Shown piece after piece: positions 3,102 through 24,666 of a stretch of 24,666 nucleotides of DNA. The notes below the pieces were generated by a model. It did no database searches and had not been told where the DNA came from. It worked only from the letters and a program-made list of their open reading frames with translations. How positions within the stretch are numbered: position 1 is the stretch's first letter; each line of letters begins with the position of its first letter. The stretch is from a virus. Location of the stretch: positions 1 through 24,666 of the IMG/VR virus record IMGVR_UViG_3300018046_000007; one strand, given 5' to 3'. Both the position numbers and the translations under genes were made by a program.

Positions 3102-3803
3102 TTACTGGCTCGTTAAAACTGATGTTGTAAATGGTTGATAAGGTTGTGGTATTATTGGGTGTCCTAAAGTAGATAGCGCTGCCATAACAGCCTCTACAAA
3201 ATAAGATGTTGCTAAGGGCGTGGCAAAAGGTGATGTTGATGGTCCTTGATCCTCTGTTAGCTCTCGCCCCATTTGTATTGTTGCTTCCGTACTATCAATT
3301 ATAAAACTTGCCCCTTCATTAGCCGTTTGTATAAATATTCCCCCACCATCCGAAACTGTAATTGTTGCTCCTCCTGCGTATATCATTACAACTGCATTAT
3401 TTTTTATGAGAGGATTTGGCATATTAGCTAGCCTGTTTTTTCCTTGGAGCCATATCCACGATTGAGTGTCACTATCAGTCCCATCATTATAAATAGACAC
3501 ATCACCAACCTGCATTCCATTTCCTGACAACTGGTCGTTAAAAATCAAATTTGGAATAATTCCATCATTTTCTGCCACGGACCACGTGCAATTTCCAAAA
3601 TTTAATGCTACTTTTTCCACCCCTGCTGGAGGTATCGATTTAAAACCATAATGTTGATTTTGTTTCTCCACTAAAATTTGATCAGGGCCTTTTCCTTGGT
3701 CCCCCGCGTCGGCATTTCCTAACCCAGAAGTTTTATTATAAATAGTTCCTGTAGTTTGTATAGGGGCTACTTGAGTGGTTTTTATCACATTTATATTACT
3801 CAT
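3102..3803 (-). CDS. Mu gp45-like baseplate spike protein
   Basis: A 233-residue protein in the gp45 (spike) position. Mu gp45 forms the trimeric membrane-piercing needle below the hub. Here residues about 98-125 carry GDVSIYNDGTDSDTQSWIWL, followed by KNNAVVMIYAGGATITVSDG (about 134-153). This is a pattern of short beta repeats typical of the OB-fold plus beta-helix spike architecture. No HxH iron-binding tip is seen at the C-terminus, which instead ends in a Pro/Thr/Ser-rich tail. The N-terminal 60 residues are longer and more polar than in Mu gp45. The GGAAGAACC ribosome site lies inside the end of the gp44-like gene. Confidence 0.72.
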   Translation of the reverse strand: MSNINVIKTTQVAPIQTTGTIYNKTSGLGNADAGDQGKGPDQILVEKQNQHYGFKSIPPAGVEKVALNFGNCTWSVAENDGIIPNLIFNDQLSGNGMQVGDVSIYNDGTDSDTQSWIWLQGKNRLANMPNPLIKNNAVVMIYAGGATITVSDGGGIFIQTANEGASFIIDSTEATIQMGRELTEDQGPSTSPFATPLATSYFVEAVMAALSTLGHPIIPQPYQPFTTSVLTSQ

Positions 3804-5472: not shown

Positions 5473-6766
5473 AAACGGTTATAGGTCCCACAACATTATT
5501 AGGGTCAAGGATTTGAGGATTTAGAGCTAAGATTCTTTCAGCGTTTTTATAGCTTTGTCCTAAAGCCATAAGTATAGACTGTATAGGTTGTTGAGAAACA
5601 TTTATAGTTTTGGTTGTAAACAACTGAAATTGAATTTGATTAATATAACTTTGCAAATTTCTTAAACCAGTTCTAAGCTGATAATCGCTCGGATTAAGCT
5701 GTATTGCTATATTTACATAGGTTCTAAGCTGATTCATTGATTGTGCCAATTGTGCTTGTGTCATAACACTAGTAGTAATATCAATATCATTTATCAAATT
5801 TCCAGCCGAATCAAAAGATGGATTATCCAAATTACTAACTACGTTTTGTCTGAGGTTTGTATCTGTTGAAACAATTGGACCAAAAGTTGAAATTAAATTA
5901 CTGGCAGAATAATCCGCCCACGCAGAACTAAGTATAGGTGCTGATGGGCCCTGAAATATTTGTCCAATTCTCTGAAAAGAACTAATTGCAGCTCCTATAT
6001 AAGAACTAGAAGATAATGGAGTTAAAGTTGCTTGTATTTTTTGTAAACCACCATTAAAAACATTTAAAATAAGAGTTGGTAAAGAAACAATATTATTTAC
6101 CGAAGACGTTATAGTACCAAAAGGATTTGTTAAATCATTTATAAGAGCATTAAAAGCATTTAAATTACTATCTAAAGAAGCCGCAAAAACTCTTATATTA
6201 TTTGCTGCACTTCCTAGAGCTGAAGAAATAGGTTGATTAATGTTAAATGTTGATTCCAATATGTTTCCAAAGCCAGATGATATAATATCTGAGGTCATTT
6301 GTTCTGATACTGATAAAGCAGCATCCCACGCTTGAGCATTTCCAAAAGAAGCAGGGACAGCCCCATTTTTTATGGTTATTAAATCTTCTACTAGTACAAC
6401 CTCCACCTCAACATAATTTTGTCTATCATCATGTAAAACGTGAAAACTTTCTACACGAACATTTAATGAACCATATTTAGGATGCGAGAAAACATGCGTT
6501 GTTTCGTTGGATAAAAGATCTAAAAAATTTAAATGTTCCGAGTATACAAAATCATCTAAAGGTCGTGTATTAGAATCAGACAAAGCTCCATACCAATAAG
6601 TTTTAAATTTTATTGTTCTGGGATGAGAGCCCATATCAACTAATAGAGCCCCATCTCTACCAATAAACTCATGCTTCACAAGAGAAAAATCTTGTGAATC
6701 CTCTATATCCAAAATGGATAAATTAATATAATCTAGTTGACAGGGAATTTGGGAAGATAAAGACAT
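5465..6766 (-). CDS. Mu gpN-like tail / DNA circularisation protein
   Basis: A 433-residue protein of the DNA-circulation (Mu gpN, gp43) family, a baseplate/tail component next to the tape measure. The N-terminal domain is recognisable: IEDSQDFSLVKHEFIGRDG (about 21-39), then PRTIKFKTYWYG (about 49-60), FLDLLSNETTHVFSHPKYGS and a beta strand rich in Val (YVEVEVVLVED) ending near residue 130. The rest is helical, rich in Ser, Asn, Ile and Leu, with probable long helices near 325-420. It starts with a good AAGGAAC site upstream, whose first A overlaps the tape-measure stop, and it overlaps the next gene by 8 bases. Confidence 0.78.
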   Translation of the reverse strand: MSLSSQIPCQLDYINLSILDIEDSQDFSLVKHEFIGRDGALLVDMGSHPRTIKFKTYWYGALSDSNTRPLDDFVYSEHLNFLDLLSNETTHVFSHPKYGSLNVRVESFHVLHDDRQNYVEVEVVLVEDLITIKNGAVPASFGNAQAWDAALSVSEQMTSDIISSGFGNILESTFNINQPISSALGSAANNIRVFAASLDSNLNAFNALINDLTNPFGTITSSVNNIVSLPTLILNVFNGGLQKIQATLTPLSSSSYIGAAISSFQRIGQIFQGPSAPILSSAWADYSASNLISTFGPIVSTDTNLRQNVVSNLDNPSFDSAGNLINDIDITTSVMTQAQLAQSMNQLRTYVNIAIQLNPSDYQLRTGLRNLQSYINQIQFQLFTTKTINVSQQPIQSILMALGQSYKNAERILALNPQILDPNNVVGPITVYA

Positions 6767-6774
6767 TTTGTTCC

Positions 6775-8409
6775 TTAATTATTATAATAACTTGATCTTC
6801 GCGAATCATTTTGAACATGAATAGGTTTATCGCTATGAATTGACACTTCTACTTTTGTTGGGTGAGTTGCTTTCTGCCTATCCAAAGCGGTCCCACTTTG
6901 CCACGCATAATCGTGGCTATGGTCAATATTTTTTGATTTTCTAGTGGTATTTAAAAAACCAAGATCCCACAAATATTTACCAAGAAGTCCGCCGCCAACC
7001 GCCGCCGCGGCTATAATGGCAACACTTAAAGCCGCAGGTACTTCTGTTACCATAAGTGCGCCCAGCTTAGACATCATTCCGCCTTCCGCAGATTTAGCAA
7101 TGGGATTTCCAAATTGGTCAAGAAGACCTCCTGCACCCTTTCCTTTTAAAAGACCACCTAAACCTACACCCCCGCCAATCTCACTAAAATTAACAACATA
7201 AACTGGAGTGACACCTATAGCAGCCATCCCTTTCCCTTCTGCAATGCCACGCCCTAAACCACCAAGTCCACCAAGTATACCCCCCTTTTTTCCAAGTATA
7301 CCTCCAATAATAGCAGCAGTGACACCAATTGCTCCTGCCCCGGCCAATTTAGGAATACCTATATCTGAAGATACCTGTGTCCAGATATTTTTCATATGAT
7401 TCATTATTCCTGGCCAAGATTTTTTTCGAATTTCATCTTGTTGCTTTACATCCCCTTCCGCTTTAGCAAAAACTCCAGGATCTGCAAGAAGTTTATGGTA
7501 CATGGCGTCCGCAAGATCTATTTCTTTTACCGTCCCCGCGCGTTGACCAACCATAAATCTCTTGCTATGCTCCACGGCAGCAGGACCAAATTTTTTAGCA
7601 TTCTCTACAACCTCGTCATAAAGTTCAAATATGTTATAATCAGGATGACTTTCTTTCCACCCATTGAATTCTGGCATGGAAAGAATTTTATCCCGTTGAC
7701 TCCAAAGTCTACCCATACCCATAATTAATTTATTTTGATTAAGCGCTCCTAACATGGCTGGAAGGGCTGTACTATATTTAGACATATCACCAGAACCCCC
7801 TGAAAAAAATTCTGCATATCTATCGGCATTCTTTGCTACATCTGAAATATTAGATAATCTTCCGGGGAAAAGGTCATGTCTTGCACTACCTAATACCATA
7901 AGATTATGCATAGCTCTACCGGCATCCTCTGGAGACTGTCCTTCTTCTTGATAAAGTTGTTGCATTTTTGAGAAAGCTTCCATAGCCGCTGGTGCATTAT
8001 CTCCTAGTTGATTGACATAACTAAGCATTTCCTTCATATGTTCATTAAAATAATTTAAATCTCCACCACCAGCCCTGAAAGCCTCTGCGAGATTAACCAC
8101 CTCATCCGCTCCCCTTCCGCAAGCATTAGCCGCCTGAAAAACCTCATTTTTAAATTTAGCGTATTCTTCTGTGGTCATTGTTGCAGCAACACGTAAATTT
8201 AACATTTTCTTTTCAAAGTCATATGCACTTTTAATCATCATTGCTGACGCGGCAACAAAAGCAGAAGCTGTACCAGCTATAGCTATTTGTGTTTTTGTAA
8301 GACCCTCCAAAGCGGTCCCGGTGAATAATTTTATGGCTTGGGTAGATTCGTTCATACCTGGAACTATCGAACCCAAAACTTTTAATCTTATAGATACATC
8401 ACGATCCAC
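6775..8409 (-). CDS. Tail tape measure protein (GTG start)
   Basis: A 544-residue tape measure protein, which sets tail length and is threaded through the tube. It has an Ala-rich N-terminal helix (about 28-60), a conserved-looking domain around FEKKMLNLRVAATMTTEEYA to GRGADEVVNLAEAFRAGGG (about 66-117), and hydrophobic Gly/Ala/Ile segments near 355-390 and 455-485 that could insert in membrane. The start is GTG at 8407-8409, sharing one base with the stop of the frameshifted chaperone (TAGTG), so translation is coupled. At this length the tail would be short for a myovirus if the usual roughly 0.15 nm per residue holds. Confidence 0.85.
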   Translation of the reverse strand: MDRDVSIRLKVLGSIVPGMNESTQAIKLFTGTALEGLTKTQIAIAGTASAFVAASAMMIKSAYDFEKKMLNLRVAATMTTEEYAKFKNEVFQAANACGRGADEVVNLAEAFRAGGGDLNYFNEHMKEMLSYVNQLGDNAPAAMEAFSKMQQLYQEEGQSPEDAGRAMHNLMVLGSARHDLFPGRLSNISDVAKNADRYAEFFSGGSGDMSKYSTALPAMLGALNQNKLIMGMGRLWSQRDKILSMPEFNGWKESHPDYNIFELYDEVVENAKKFGPAAVEHSKRFMVGQRAGTVKEIDLADAMYHKLLADPGVFAKAEGDVKQQDEIRKKSWPGIMNHMKNIWTQVSSDIGIPKLAGAGAIGVTAAIIGGILGKKGGILGGLGGLGRGIAEGKGMAAIGVTPVYVVNFSEIGGGVGLGGLLKGKGAGGLLDQFGNPIAKSAEGGMMSKLGALMVTEVPAALSVAIIAAAAVGGGLLGKYLWDLGFLNTTRKSKNIDHSHDYAWQSGTALDRQKATHPTKVEVSIHSDKPIHVQNDSRRSSYYNN

Positions 8410-9161: not shown

Positions 9162-9461
9162 TCATATGACATTGCCTTTTAAAATATAGGCAAAACAATC
9201 ATAGCCACTAAGAGTAGTGACTGCAGTACGAACATACAAATCTTCCCAATCATCTAATTTTTCCATATCTTCTTGGTCAACTTCTACTAAATCACCAGAT
9301 ACAATACTTCCGGGAATAGGCTCTATAGTATAATAACCTTTACCTTTATATATTTTTTTCCAGTTTTGTAACCAGTCCTTTGCAAAAAGGATAGGGACAT
9401 GTCCAAGGACTTTATCATCCAAGGCCTCGTCCCTGAGAGTGCCATAAACAAAAATATACAT
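9162..9461 (-). CDS. Gamma-glutamylcyclotransferase-like (GGCT/AIG2 fold) protein
   Basis: A 99-residue protein with the hallmarks of the GGCT/AIG2/GGACT superfamily. It opens with FVYGTLR (residues 4-10), the substrate-binding loop, and has a GDLVEVD strand (56-62). It also has KLDDWEDLYVRTAV (68-81), matching the LDxxE...Y.R motif, so E73 is the predicted catalytic Glu. Known members turn gamma-glutamyl amines, gamma-glutamyl peptides or glutathione into 5-oxoproline plus the released amine. The start shares a base with the tube gene's stop (TAATG), so it is made with the tail proteins. Its role in the phage is unknown; it could modify a virion or host molecule. It is somewhat shorter than typical members. 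Confidence 0.78.
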   Translation of the reverse strand: MYIFVYGTLRDEALDDKVLGHVPILFAKDWLQNWKKIYKGKGYYTIEPIPGSIVSGDLVEVDQEDMEKLDDWEDLYVRTAVTTLSGYDCFAYILKGNVI

Positions 9462-12508: not shown

Positions 12509-13543
12509 TTAGGCGATCGTCCTTGTCCAGAGATAACCTACATCGGCCTGTACTGGAACGACTTCGATCCACTCCGATGCCTCATACACGGTCTGGTGAT
12601 TCCATTCTTCGCGATAGGAAATCAACCGACGCCAGGTATTTCCATCATAAGCTACTCTATATTGATACCCAACAGAGAGCTGCTTTAATCCAGCGGCTGC
12701 GGGACGATAGAAAAGGAATGCCATCCCCTTACCGGAATTAGCCTGTGAATCCCAAATGGACTTCATAACAGGGCTATTTACAGTTGAGACGTTATCTTTC
12801 GATGGTGAAGTGATTGCCTTACCAACTATAACATTCTCGATACCTAGCATCTGAGCAAGAACGTTTGGTGTAACGATTGCAGGATTACCAGCTTCTTTCT
12901 GTGAAAATTTTATTCTTTGCAAAGTCGGTTCGTTCATCAATAGATTATAAAATGTTGCGTAATCCATTAATAGACTATTTGGATCTATACCAGTCTTTTG
13001 CTGAATGTTAAATTTAGCTGTAAGAATATCCTTAATAAAATTAGACGTAGTACTATCTGATGCACCAACTTCTAGCCAACTACCCGCACCATTAGTGGGA
13101 ACTGATCCGCCAGCTGTACCATCAGCAAAAACAGTTGTTCCACCGAGAATTGAGTTGGCGACGAGGACCTCACGATAAAGATCCAATTTATCGGACACAA
13201 GTAAAATTGTGTCTTGAATTGGCTGAATAGGAGCATTACCTGGTTGTTGAGATGCAAAGAAAAGCTCATCTACAACCACACCACCAGCAGCAATTTCAAC
13301 TGGATCCAGGTTTTGATAAGACAGCGACCAATCAACGCGCGGGGCAGTTGTACCGGGTGCTCTGATTTTTGCTGCGTTTGTAAACCACGGCTGTTTGTTG
13401 TATTTAGCAACTTTAGTCTGATAGTTTAAACCATTAATAAGCGGAAATACTGAGTCTGCAACATACTCTGCGTTGCGGTATAATGTAGATACGTTTTGCA
13501 GTGCACCACGTACAACTACACTGGAAATTACTGGAAAAGCCAT
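12509..13543 (-). CDS. Major capsid protein
   Basis: A 344-residue major head protein, in HK97-fold style. It has the N-terminal arm with SVVVRGALQNVSTLYRNAEY (8-27), VADSVFPLI (28-36), a beta segment with PRVDWSLSYQNLDPVEIA, a long helix with DTILLVSDKLDLYREVLVAN (about 109-128), and DSTTSNFIKDILTAKFNIQQ (about 161-180). It also has the ANSILGG and NVLAQMLGIENVIVGKAI segments common to the P22-coat-5-like or gpE-type phage heads. It follows the protease and the decoration-like gene, as expected. AACAGGAG supplies the ribosome site, in a leader duplicated in front of the previous gene. Length and order match Mu gpT (305 residues) approximately. Confidence 0.88.
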   Translation of the reverse strand: MAFPVISSVVVRGALQNVSTLYRNAEYVADSVFPLINGLNYQTKVAKYNKQPWFTNAAKIRAPGTTAPRVDWSLSYQNLDPVEIAAGGVVVDELFFASQQPGNAPIQPIQDTILLVSDKLDLYREVLVANSILGGTTVFADGTAGGSVPTNGAGSWLEVGASDSTTSNFIKDILTAKFNIQQKTGIDPNSLLMDYATFYNLLMNEPTLQRIKFSQKEAGNPAIVTPNVLAQMLGIENVIVGKAITSPSKDNVSTVNSPVMKSIWDSQANSGKGMAFLFYRPAAAGLKQLSVGYQYRVAYDGNTWRRLISYREEWNHQTVYEASEWIEVVPVQADVGYLWTRTIA

Positions 13544-13548
13544 ATTTA

Positions 13549-13575
13549 ACTCCTGTTAATTTACAAGTTTAAGTT
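13549..13575 (-). repeat. Duplicated 27-base leader, copy 1 (before capsid gene)
   Basis: The 27 bases here are identical to 13996-14022. On the minus strand each copy ends in AACAGGAGT and is followed by xxAATATGGC, so the repeat carries the ribosome site of the capsid gene. Confidence 0.9.
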
Positions 13576-13594
13576 TACTTTAATACTGATACAA

Positions 13595-13990
13595 TTACTG
13601 TGCTTTTGGGGCACCAATAGCATCAATTAGACGAACAGTTATAATATCACCTGAGGTAGTGGCCGCTTCAAGGGCAATAGCTCTTGCAAGACCGTTTACA
13701 CCCGATGTATCCAGCGCCAAGGTTGCCAGACCTGTTCCAGTCGCACCTCTAAGGATTGTTCCAACTGCATAAGAACTATCAGCTGTTACTTTGCATACAC
13801 CGGCGTAAGCGACCTCGCACGCACTGGCAAGGGGTGGAACAGAAACTGCAATACCAGCGATATTATTAGTACCGTCAGGCATATTACAAGATGTACCATC
13901 CGTAGTAATAACAAAAATTGGGGTGGTTGCAGCAGATACAGTTGAGTCTGCAAGTAAAGTCATAGACTGATAATTTAATACATAAGCCAT
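13595..13990 (-). CDS. Capsid decoration-like protein (DUF2190-type)
   Basis: A 131-residue small, beta-rich, nearly uncharged protein, rich in Ala, Thr, Val and Gly: AGIAVSVPPLASACEVAYAG (about 45-64), VCKVTADSSYAVGTILRGAT (65-84), and a C-terminal TTSGDIITVRLIDA (about 111-124). This is the pattern of DUF2190/head decoration proteins that sit next to the major capsid gene: a capacity for constant 'cement' on the head surface. The position between protease/scaffold and capsid genes supports it. Strong AACAGGAG ribosome site. Confidence 0.7.
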   Translation of the reverse strand: MAYVLNYQSMTLLADSTVSAATTPIFVITTDGTSCNMPDGTNNIAGIAVSVPPLASACEVAYAGVCKVTADSSYAVGTILRGATGTGLATLALDTSGVNGLARAIALEAATTSGDIITVRLIDAIGAPKAQ

Positions 13991-13995
13991 ATTCT

Positions 13996-14022
13996 ACTCC
14001 TGTTAATTTACAAGTTTAAGTT
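13996..14022 (-). repeat. Duplicated 27-base leader, copy 2 (before decoration gene)
   Basis: Exact copy of 13549-13575. It overlaps the last two bases of the upstream protease gene's stop region and supplies the ribosome site of the decoration-like gene. Confidence 0.9.
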
Positions 14023-16654: not shown

Positions 16655-16659
16655 TGCCT

Positions 16660-16750
16660 TATATAAATATATACACGCGAAAACCAAAATTTAATTAATT
16701 TTTTTTATATTTTAGTATTTTTTATCAATTGCCGTGTATATATTTATATA
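16660..16750. repeat. 18-bp perfect inverted repeat in the divergent promoter region
   Basis: TATATAAATATATACACG (16660-16677) recurs inverted at 16733-16750 with 55 AT-rich bases between. Each arm contains TATAAATA; the left arm reads rightward and the right arm leftward. It may hold two facing promoter boxes or an operator for a regulator that controls both operons. Confidence 0.75.
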
Positions 16751-16797
16751 GGGTTTTATATCAATTTTTTAACTTAAAGGGGGGTTAAAACACCATT

Positions 16798-20929: not shown

Positions 20930-21305
20930 ATTTGATATAGAAGATACTGCCACGCCACTTTTTGAAGATTTAATCCAAGCAGAAAACAACATGTCTGATC
21001 CGTTAAAACGGGCGGCGGACGAGGCCATAAAATCAGTCCACGAAAATTTTGAGGCTGGTGGGCGTCCTGCATGGCAACCACACAAAAAAGAAGTTCCGTG
21101 GCCCCTGCTTATGGATACAATGTCGCTGTACGATTCCATCGACGCAGAAATTCACGATAAAGAAGTATGGGTCCTTTCAACCGCCGAATATGCCCCCTAT
21201 CAAGATCTCGGGACGGAACATATCCCCGCGAGACCATTCCTGGTAATTCAAAATTCCGACGCGGACGAAATCGAGAAAATTATAGCCCAACATTTCGATC
21301 TGTAA
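20922..21305 (+). CDS. Virion morphogenesis protein, Mu gpG-like
   Basis: A 127-residue protein of the phage virion morphogenesis/tail completion family (Mu gpG, P2 gpS-like). Visible features: the helical N-terminus, FEAGGRPAWQPHKKEVPWPL (43-62), LLMDTMSLYDSIDAEI (62-77), WVLSTAEYAPYQDLGTEHIP (83-102) and ARPFLVIQ (103-110), then a closing helix. These correspond to the 'R.aWqp', 'll.dTg.L..Si', 'YA..q..G' and 'pARPF' signature. It acts in joining or completing tails. Here it is far from the other tail genes, on the opposite strand, behind the holin-like genes. Confidence 0.8.
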   Translation: MFEFDIEDTATPLFEDLIQAENNMSDPLKRAADEAIKSVHENFEAGGRPAWQPHKKEVPWPLLMDTMSLYDSIDAEIHDKEVWVLSTAEYAPYQDLGTEHIPARPFLVIQNSDADEIEKIIAQHFDL

Positions 21306-21339
21306 TAATCTCTTAATATTATTATTTAAAGTATAAATA
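21303..21339 (+). promoter_or_regulatory. Repeated two-part promoter motif, copy A
   Basis: TAATAATCTCTTAATAT (21303-21319), 12 bases, then TATAAATA (21332-21339), 17 bases before the ATG at 21357 with AAGGAG between. If TATAAATA is the -10 box, the 17-mer covers about -43 to -27. The 17-mer begins inside the stop of the preceding gene. Confidence 0.65.
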
Positions 21340-21356: not shown

Positions 21357-21659
21357 ATGTATATTACAACTGATGTCGGGCTATTTGTAAAACATAACCA
21401 TAACCTAAATATGTGGATCATCCACCGCCACTATCCTACGATACAGCATGATGATGCACAAGACATACTGGGCCAAGTTTATCTTTATTTCGTGGAAAAG
21501 GATATTTTACGTCAGTATGATGCATCCAAAAGTAAATTTGATACGTGGATTACAAGTATAATTAAAAATAGATGTAAAAATTTTTTTAGAAATAACATGA
21601 CCCTAGCTTTTATAAAAATGGACGAAAATCTGGTTTATTTAGAGCAAGACGATGCTTAG
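21357..21659 (+). CDS. Sigma-factor region-2-like protein (minimal sigma candidate)
   Basis: A 100-residue protein whose middle matches the sigma-70/ECF region 2 layout. It has a helix ending in IQHDDAQDILGQVYLYFVEK (29-48), as in 'xxAEDLvQevFl', then LRQYDASKSKFDTWITSIIK (51-70) and NRCKNFFRNN (71-80), as in 'fdp.kgsf.tWl..Ia.Nr..d..R'. No region 4 helix-turn-helix follows, so it could only contact the -10 region, like phage T4 gp55. AAGGAG lies 7 bases upstream, and promoter copy A directly precedes it, which suggests autoregulation. A non-sigma role in DNA binding cannot be excluded. Confidence 0.6.
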   Translation: MYITTDVGLFVKHNHNLNMWIIHRHYPTIQHDDAQDILGQVYLYFVEKDILRQYDASKSKFDTWITSIIKNRCKNFFRNNMTLAFIKMDENLVYLEQDDA

Positions 21660-21879
21660 TTCCGAAGAAAAACGGGCCCGTTTTAATGCATATAGAAAAA
21701 AAAGAACTGCCCGCAATCAGGTTTTAAAAAATTTGCCCAAAGCCCGTGATTGCTTTATAGGAGATGATATAATATGCTTTCGCCTCGTGTGTATACACCC
21801 ATTTTGTAAAGATGATATAAAAAAGCACTGGAAAAATCCATATATACCTGATTATAGCGAGGATGAAAAAAATGACTGA
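21652..21879 (+). CDS. Small basic protein, unknown
   Basis: A 75-residue product overlapping the previous gene's stop by 8 bases (ATGCTTAG). The N-terminal 30 residues are very basic (EEKRARFNAYRKKRTARNQV), suggesting nucleic-acid or RNA polymerase contact. The middle has three Cys (CFRLVCIHPFC, about 42-52). It is translated with the sigma-like protein and could be its partner, but this is inference. No family recognised. Only a weak GAG-type ribosome site is seen. Confidence 0.5.
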   Translation: MLSSEEKRARFNAYRKKRTARNQVLKNLPKARDCFIGDDIICFRLVCIHPFCKDDIKKHWKNPYIPDYSEDEKND

Positions 21880-23229: not shown

Positions 23230-23266
23230 TAATAATCTATTAATATAGTTTGTAGTAGTATAACTA
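23230..23266 (+). promoter_or_regulatory. Repeated two-part promoter motif, copy B
   Basis: TAATAATCTATTAATAT (23230-23246), 12 bases, then TATAACTA (23259-23266), 22 bases before the HNH gene's ATG with AAGGAGG between. The copy differs from copy A by one base in the 17-mer and shares TG before it. Confidence 0.65.
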
Positions 23267-23288: not shown

Positions 23289-23762
23289 ATGTATCTACAA
23301 AATTTAGGTGCTGAGCAAATCAACGCAATCAGGGGTCGGTTCCAGAAAAAAGTTTTTGAAACACCTACGTGCTGGCTATGGAAAGGTAAACAAAAAGCAG
23401 ATGGATACGGGCTATTTTGTCTCAACCAAAAACGAGTCCGGGCGCACAGACTCAGTTTTGAGCTTTACAGGGGAGACATACCTGCTGGTATGATAATTTG
23501 TCATACGTGTGATAATCCATCGTGCGTCAATCCCGCCCATCTTTTTGTAGGTACAGATGCCATCAATGCATGTGACCGAGATGTAAAAGACCGCGGCGCG
23601 AGCGCGCTGACTTATCGCCAAGTTGCTGCCATCCGAGCCCTGAAAGGACAGGGAATCACCCACAAGGAGCTCGGACGGATCTATGGCGTGGGACGTAGCT
23701 GTATAACCAAAATTCTAAACCATCGCCGCTGGAAAGCCAATAAATACTCGGCGATAAAATAA
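23289..23762 (+). CDS. HNH endonuclease with C-terminal helix-turn-helix (homing type)
   Basis: A 157-residue nuclease. It has CWLWKGKQKADGYGLF (28-43), then AHRLSFELYRGDIPAG (52-67), then the HNH metal core ICHTCDNPSCVNPAHLFVGT (70-89) with H72 and C71, C74, C79 and H84. The C-terminal part, LTYRQVAAIRALKGQGITHK (107-126) and YGVGRSCITKILNHRRW (132-148), is a helix-turn-helix for DNA binding. This domain order is usual in phage free-standing homing endonucleases. It has its own promoter-like motif and a strong AAGGAGG site. Its C-terminal half is visibly richer in G and C than its neighbours, which suggests recent acquisition. Confidence 0.88.
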   Translation: MYLQNLGAEQINAIRGRFQKKVFETPTCWLWKGKQKADGYGLFCLNQKRVRAHRLSFELYRGDIPAGMIICHTCDNPSCVNPAHLFVGTDAINACDRDVKDRGASALTYRQVAAIRALKGQGITHKELGRIYGVGRSCITKILNHRRWKANKYSAIK

Positions 23763-24073: not shown

Positions 24074-24607
24074 ATGAACAGTGTAAATTATTTCCCAATA
24101 GCCCTTAAATTTGTACTCGATGCCGAGGGAGGGTTTGTTGATAATTTCAACGACCCGGGCCAAGCGACCAACCAAGGCGTGACCCAGGCAGTTTATGACA
24201 CATACAGGTCATCCATAAATCAACCTCCCCAGTCCGTGGCTGATATAACTCCTTTCGACGTGACACAAATATATCGAGTTAATTACTGGCTGGCTGGATC
24301 CTGTGATAAAATATTATCTCAAGTTTCTGTTTGTCACTTTAACGTATGTGTAAACTCGGGCGTTGAACAAGCAGGAAAACTGCTCCAGCGGGCAGCAGGC
24401 GTGGCACAGGTCGATGGCATAGTAGGTCCAAACACACTAACAGCTGTAAATGCCATCAATCCAGTTGACCTATGTAATCAATATATACAAGAAATAAAAG
24501 ATTTTTACAATAGGCTATGTATCAATGCCCCAAATTTTCAAGAATTTTTACAAGGATGGCTTAATCGTACAGCAGATCTTAATAATCTCTTAATATCTTT
24601 AGAATAG
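24074..24607 (+). CDS. Endolysin, glycoside hydrolase family 108-type
   Basis: A 177-residue muramidase-type endolysin that cuts the glycan strands of peptidoglycan. The catalytic-domain start reads ALKFVLDAEGGFVDNFNDPG (10-29), then QATNQGVTQAVY (30-41), the GH108 'EGGyvndp.DpGg.Tn.GiT' motif, with E18 the likely acid. The C-terminal part has LLQRAAGV, DGIVGPNTLTAVN (about 112-130), a peptidoglycan-binding_3 pattern. Such enzymes are common in phages of Gram-negative hosts. No signal or SAR segment is seen, so a holin is needed. The ATG at 24074 has AGGGG 6 bases upstream; an earlier in-frame ATG at 23978 lacks one and overlaps the small gene before it. Confidence 0.85.
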   Translation: MNSVNYFPIALKFVLDAEGGFVDNFNDPGQATNQGVTQAVYDTYRSSINQPPQSVADITPFDVTQIYRVNYWLAGSCDKILSQVSVCHFNVCVNSGVEQAGKLLQRAAGVAQVDGIVGPNTLTAVNAINPVDLCNQYIQEIKDFYNRLCINAPNFQEFLQGWLNRTADLNNLLISLE

Positions 24608-24615
24608 TAATAATA
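24580..24615 (+). promoter_or_regulatory. Repeated two-part promoter motif, copy C
   Basis: TAATAATCTCTTAATAT (24580-24596), identical to copy A, then 11 bases and TAATAATA (24608-24615), 26 bases before the ATG at 24642. The 17-mer lies inside the last codons of the endolysin gene. Both A and C are preceded by GATCT. Confidence 0.62.
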
Positions 24616-24641: not shown

Positions 24642-24666
24642 ATGGCAAAAATAATCGACCGAGTTA
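24642..24666 (+). CDS. Start of a further gene, cut by window edge
   Basis: ATG at 24642 with AAAGGAG about 8 bases upstream and promoter copy C before it. Only MAKIIDRV can be read, too little to name. Confidence 0.6.

Follow-up and report, generated by a model that had tools for sequence, protein, structure and literature searches.

A sigma region 2-only protein and the conserved promoter element before its gene in a group of uncultured tailed phages

A fragment of an uncultured tailed phage encodes a protein of 100 residues that qualifies as a true sigma region 2 and consists of this region only. Its gene lies behind a 17-bp element that comparison with related phages marks as a conserved promoter element of the group, held at a fixed distance from a -10 box and tied to the sigma-like gene. 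We tentatively explain the two together, with just under even confidence, as a minimal, autoregulated phage sigma factor working with a second DNA-reading protein. The protein would be a phage sigma factor descended from extracytoplasmic function (ECF) sigmas and reduced to domain 2, which would dock on the clamp helices of the host's core polymerase and would read and melt a TATAA-type -10 box. Because domain 4 is missing, another DNA-binding protein, sitting on the 17-bp element, would read the -35 region of the target promoters. Since the sigma-like gene itself stands behind a 17-mer promoter, its product probably drives its own synthesis and the expression of a few early or middle genes. 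We infer the binding to polymerase, the role of the 17-mer promoters as targets, and the second reader protein.

The stretch of DNA analyzed here, called the window, is the entire IMG/VR record IMGVR_UViG_3300018046_000007, a linear fragment of 24,666 bases. The source is a tailed phage, whose genes include those for a Mu-type portal (Portal_Mu, 4e-68), large terminase, tail completion protein, and major capsid protein, besides tail genes. From 16.46 kb the structural genes are oriented leftward; from 16.8 kb the genes for packaging, accessory functions, and lysis are oriented rightward. The closest portal matches among phage records share only about 30% identity, indicating that the window represents a member of an uncultured group. 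Scans that used alignments of the portal, capsid, and terminase led to related contigs, about 129 of them nonredundant. Several other features of the group were observed along the way. The window carries a GGACT (gamma-glutamyl cyclotransferase-like) gene within the tail gene cluster (9162-9461, minus strand) and a duplicated 51-nt stretch (13525-13575 and 13972-14022, 86% identical) that surrounds the start of the capsid gene and that of an adjacent small ORF. The large terminase of L002 is split by a long insertion with an intein-like sequence and an overlapping HNH-like ORF (5584-7911), and the portals of L011 (9959-12058) and L012 (9863-12007) have a C-terminal extension resembling a phosphoglycerate mutase domain (RHG motif). 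A 22-nt unit is repeated in tandem at the contig end of L008 (14799-14935). L012 holds two identical 52-nt copies with a strong hairpin (1062-1113 and 3201-3252; CCACGGGC...GCCCGTGG); these are probably terminators, or else a small mobile repeat.

Table 1. Positions of the features discussed (window coordinates unless a contig is named)
Feature	Position	Strand	Remarks
Inverted repeat, left arm, between divergent operons	16657..16677	.	TATAAATA at 16662 (+)
Inverted repeat, right arm	16733..16753	.	TATAAATA at 16741 (-)
Equivalent inverted repeats	L008 5727-5802; L010 8184-8245; L012 7855-7899; L225 15216-15254		position conserved, sequence not
17-mer upstream element, copy A, promoter of sigma-like gene	21303..21319	+	about -41 to -25; exact triplicate
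-10-like box TATAAATA of copy A	21332..21339	+	29 nt from element start
Sigma region 2-only protein	21357..21659	+	100 aa; Pfam, home-made HMM, AlphaFold2, PDB fold matches
75-aa ORF, considered as partner	21652..21879	+	overlaps sigma-like gene by 8 nt
17-mer, copy B, before HNH and lysozyme genes	23230..23246	+	
-10-like box TATAACTA of copy B	23259..23266	+	
17-mer, copy C	24580..24596	+	inside lysozyme gene 3' end, before ORF starting at 24642
-10-like box TAATAA of copy C	24608..24613	+	offset 28
Tandem sigma-4-like HTH protein, L013	gene 609-1379, element 1565	+	PF08281 9e-7; just upstream of element
Tandem sigma-4-like HTH protein, L049	gene 586-1200, element 1266	-	divergent; element between this gene and sigma-like gene
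Ribbon-helix-helix-like small proteins	L222:5899-6084, L225:4720-4938	-	open leftward early operon, facing DNA polymerase operon

The sigma-like ORF starts with ATG and has AAGGAGA in front of it. The original prediction had read its product as a sigma region 2 without region 4, and the searches bear this out. Residues 11 to 80 matched Pfam Sigma70_r2 (PF04542) with 31 bits against a cutoff of 24 (E = 2.2e-7), the NCBIfam ECF sigma superfamily matched at 4.6e-6, and a home-made HMM of ECF region 2 ranked the protein first (4.9e-8), followed by those of L011 and L012. Neither Pfam nor a home-made HMM found region 4 in the protein, and the home-made HMM found nothing similar to region 4 of ECF factors in any ORF of at least 30 aa in the window, L011, or L012. 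The predicted structure of the protein alone also resembled sigma region 2. AlphaFold2, run with a three-row alignment, gave a pLDDT of 81 overall (the mean over the five models ranged from 81 down to 41) and above 90 for about residues 1 to 75, with helices at residues 7 to 25, 31 to 48, and 61 to 84 and predicted disorder from 82 to 100. Among solved structures, Foldseek placed region 2 of Escherichia coli sigmaE first (4lup, 2map, and 5or5; probability of 1.0 but E only 0.08 to 0.1). VIA-align returned almost only sigma factors, with Z up to 8.9, a modest value for helical bundles. Absence from the Foldseek or VIA lists was never counted against kinship to any family. The region 2 assignment is firm because the sequence profile and the fold matches stand together.

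Other parts of the original prediction did not hold. It had proposed a minimal sigma of the T4 gp55 type, and the HMM searches agreed with sigma region 2 but not with gp55: gp55 matches its family, phrog_234, at 3e-69, whereas the window protein has no match to it. Pairwise similarity to gp55 was likewise absent (BLASTP E of 8.3). The model does match the gp55 structure 7d7c (VIA Z of 6.4), but this is a general fold match, and the closest folds are those of ECF region 2. Kinship with gp55 is therefore rejected on sequence.

A region 2 by itself could also serve as a decoy, occupying the clamp of the host RNA polymerase and shutting off host transcription with no promoter-specific function. 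A lone region 2 could compete for the core clamp, and neither a region 4 nor a known partner accompanies this one. However, the promoter-reading segment 2.3-2.4 (KFDTWITSIIKNRCKNFFR) is retained as in ECF sigmas, and a dedicated promoter before the gene recurs across phages, so that we regard a decoy as very improbable.

The protein belongs to a family of distant homologues. No match was found in a first viral scan with the single 100-aa protein as the query, and INPHARED phages and PLSDB plasmids held no close relatives, only weak matches (E of 0.01 or worse); the weak phage matches that were examined were full-length ECF factors. A three-member profile (window, L011, and L012) recovered six homologues with E values of 6e-4 to 1e-45, all in phages whose genes for head and packaging are related. 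The values for L011 and L012 follow by construction because both sat in the profile; those for L049, L132, L055, and L184, outside it, were between 7e-15 and 6e-4. Identity to the window protein is 19 to 27%, and the core-binding helix pattern DxxDhhQxFaL and the motif FsTyI are kept across the family. A recognizable region 4 is absent from all seven members. Against Pfam, the relatives scored below the window copy (E of 4e-6 to 0.04), and their assignment to region 2 therefore rests on the family profile and shared position.

Five of the homologues (L011, L012, L049, L055, and L132) are longer and share a C-terminal domain, about 60 aa in size, which is absent from the window protein and from that of L184. 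It has no similarity to sigma-4 (hhalign probability of 0.3%), and the AlphaFold model of the longer L012 protein was too uncertain (mean pLDDT of 58) for a fold search with it. The presence of this domain in five relatives would fit a window protein that is the truncated remnant of a longer sigma-like protein. Against this, the window gene has a good start site, an intact promoter, and the family's best Pfam region 2 score, L184 provides a second, independent short member (110 aa), and no trace of the domain was found in any frame of the window. We consider a remnant extremely improbable.

The promoter of the sigma-like gene carries a 17-mer, TAATAATCTnTTAATAT (written TAATAATCT[CA]TTAATAT), which occurs three times on the plus strand of the window; none of 60 order-2 Markov sequences contained any 17-mer three times. 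The conserved 17-bp element reads TAATAAT-CTn-TTAATA(T/C) and holds two TAATA units 11 bp apart. With one mismatch allowed, the pattern TAATAMYCTNYTAATAY matched 11 times, in 8 of 15 related records, compared with none for the reversed control pattern, and strong weight matrix sites (at least 22 bits) were found only in eight of the related contigs. Over the 11 sites, the mean score for a TATAA-type box peaked at 4.5 bits for boxes starting 28 to 29 nt from the element start, compared with about 0 elsewhere, and 0 of 5,000 shuffles reached the peak. This is an independent test because the sites had been picked by the upstream element alone, and the spacing places the element at about -41 to -25 relative to the start of transcription. 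The box TATAAATA alone is weak evidence, since its nine copies in the whole window, mostly inside genes, compare with 3.6 expected, and 3 of 100 shuffles reached nine. When the collection was scanned for the 17-mer followed by GTA, six contigs matched, of which three were nearly the same at the site. One of the six, L049, was a relative, and it has the homologous gene directly behind the element.

The element and the gene are linked. Five phages (the window, L049, L055, L132, and L184) have the element 54 to 206 nt ahead of the sigma-like gene and on its strand; in L049, L132, and L184, a small nonconserved ORF separates the two. The proposal that the gene has its own promoter is thus upheld, as four other divergent phages retain the 17-mer and TATAA box before their sigma-like genes. 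Among 97 nonredundant contigs, 8 bear the element, 7 bear the gene, and 5 bear both (hypergeometric P of about 2e-5, with shared ancestry ignored). Three contigs have the element and no detected sigma-like gene (L008, L013, and L181, the last of 32 kb), and L011 and L012 have the gene and no element; these mismatches are not decisive because all five contigs are fragments.

The layout also fits a different mode of control, in which a phage activator acts on the 17-mer together with host sigma-70 on the TATAA box and the sigma-like gene is a member of the regulon whose product acts on other promoters. T4 middle promoters have a phage-specific box overlapping the -35 region and a -10 box, and MotA works there with host sigma-70 (sigma appropriation by MotA/AsiA). 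The element described here, centered near -33 and followed by a TATAA box, is arranged in the same way, and L008, L013, and L181 would be accounted for. However, the linkage of element and gene is fixed in five divergent phages, and no activator gene was identified that all the element-bearing contigs share. The MotA box differs in sequence and length, and MotA is not known to have sigma-2 homology, whereas the element described here goes with a sigma-2 gene. We judge control of this kind somewhat unlikely.

The element might instead be an operator, with a phage repressor, such as the ribbon-helix-helix protein whose gene comes first in the leftward early operon of L132 and L184 or the tandem helix-turn-helix (HTH) protein discussed below, covering the -35 region of ordinary host sigma promoters and the sigma-like gene being a repressed early gene. 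Direct TAATA units one helical turn apart are consistent with this, as are the elements of L184, where one copy precedes the ribbon-helix-helix gene and a weaker one, facing the other way, precedes the DNA polymerase operon, and the tandem HTH genes that adjoin the element in L049 and L013. In contrast, copies A to C have no TTGACA-like -35 at normal spacing, so that an unaided host promoter at these sites would be weak, and no ribbon-helix-helix gene is seen in the window fragment. An operator is, in our judgment, unlikely.

Returning to the preferred reading of a minimal sigma factor with a second reader, the positions of the element bear on the timing of its regulon. Besides the sites before the sigma-like gene and in L184, the element precedes a primase-helicase-like gene in L008 and, in L013 only, the terminase gene; in the window, further copies stand before the HNH and lysozyme genes and before a right-end ORF. 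Because most sites in the relatives lie before the sigma-like gene and replication genes, the 17-mer regulon looks early or middle and not late. This distribution does not favor the late-transcription switch put forward in the original prediction.

Nor does the inverted repeat near 16.7 kb add support for a sigma target, as had been argued from the TATAAATA box in both of its arms. The window, L008, L010, L012, and the L132 contig all have perfect repeats of 14 to 18 nt (14 to 17 nt in the relatives) where the structural and packaging operons diverge, and in each case 0 of 200 shuffles matched this. The arms in the relatives contain TATAAT or TATATT reading outward, and the window's TATAAATA is the inward reading of an A/T-rich arm. 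Of the repeat-bearing relatives, L012 and L132 have the sigma-like gene and L008 and L010 have none detected. These equivalent repeats in relatives without a detected gene indicate that the repeat is a feature of the group's divergent late promoters, and we rejected its arms as paired target promoters.

Several proteins were considered as the second factor. The co-translated 75-residue protein had been suggested for this role, but this was not supported: it has no homologue in more than 100 related contigs, and different small ORFs adjoin the sigma-like gene in the relatives. It matched phrog_32879, a family of unknown function, weakly (0.0037) and showed no Pfam match and no sigma-4 signal with the home-made HMM. 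The HNH protein encoded at 23289-23762 has a C-terminal HTH with a subthreshold Sigma70_r4 match (0.0053); HNH_3 proteins commonly carry an HTH, and this protein was rejected as not common to the relatives (one weak match). No sigma-4 partner was found among ORFs of at least 30 aa in the window fragment. The best candidates for the 17-mer reader are possibly the tandem sigma-4-like HTH proteins of L049 and L013, which may alternatively be late regulators. Recognition of the paired TAATA units, which lie 11 bp apart, could fall to their two sigma-4-like HTH units. They are treated as a lead only because no such protein was detected in the other gene-bearing contigs, including the 32-kb and 40-kb records. 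A full split sigma, in which the domain 2-only subunit and a separately encoded tandem HTH protein reading the 17-bp direct-repeat element would together control their own gene and replication operons, strikes us as rather unlikely. The ribbon-helix-helix-like proteins of L222 and L225 are further candidates for binding the element.

Among known systems, the window protein is closest in region 2 sequence and fold to ECF (group IV) sigmas such as E. coli sigmaE (4lup and 2map). ECF sigmas, however, carry sigma-4 on the same chain. In function, SigO-RsoA and T4 gp55-gp33 are the nearest parallels. In the SigO-RsoA system of Bacillus subtilis, RsoA is a separate small protein with sigma-2 only, and the partner supplies sigma-4 (PMC8103513, PMC10141391). 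The window protein likewise has sigma-2 on a separate small protein, but SigO-RsoA is cellular and has a recognizable sigma-4 partner next door, whereas the phage fragment has no sigma-4 protein and the 75-aa neighbor is not one. With T4 gp55, which acts with gp33 and gp45, the window protein shares the region 2-only architecture: gp55 is a phage sigma of this kind that needs separate proteins, and gp55-gp33 is a split sigma in which gp33 does not read DNA sequence and the late promoters have no upstream element (PMC2988020). The fragment carries no phage clamp gene with which the predicted disordered C terminus (residues 82 to 100) could be compared for a gp55-type clamp-binding motif. T4 late promoters thus consist of a -10 box alone, in contrast to the promoters linked to the window gene, its putative targets, which carry the conserved 17-bp upstream element.

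The recurrence of the protein family and its promoter in distant relatives suggests a stripped-down way of redirecting the host RNA polymerase. If the preferred reading is right, these phages would provide a third natural route, beside gp55/gp33 and SigO/RsoA, to transcription initiation without a full sigma chain. Recognition of the -10 and -35 regions would then reside on two proteins, both testable in a tiny system, and the promoter class can be searched for in uncultured phages.
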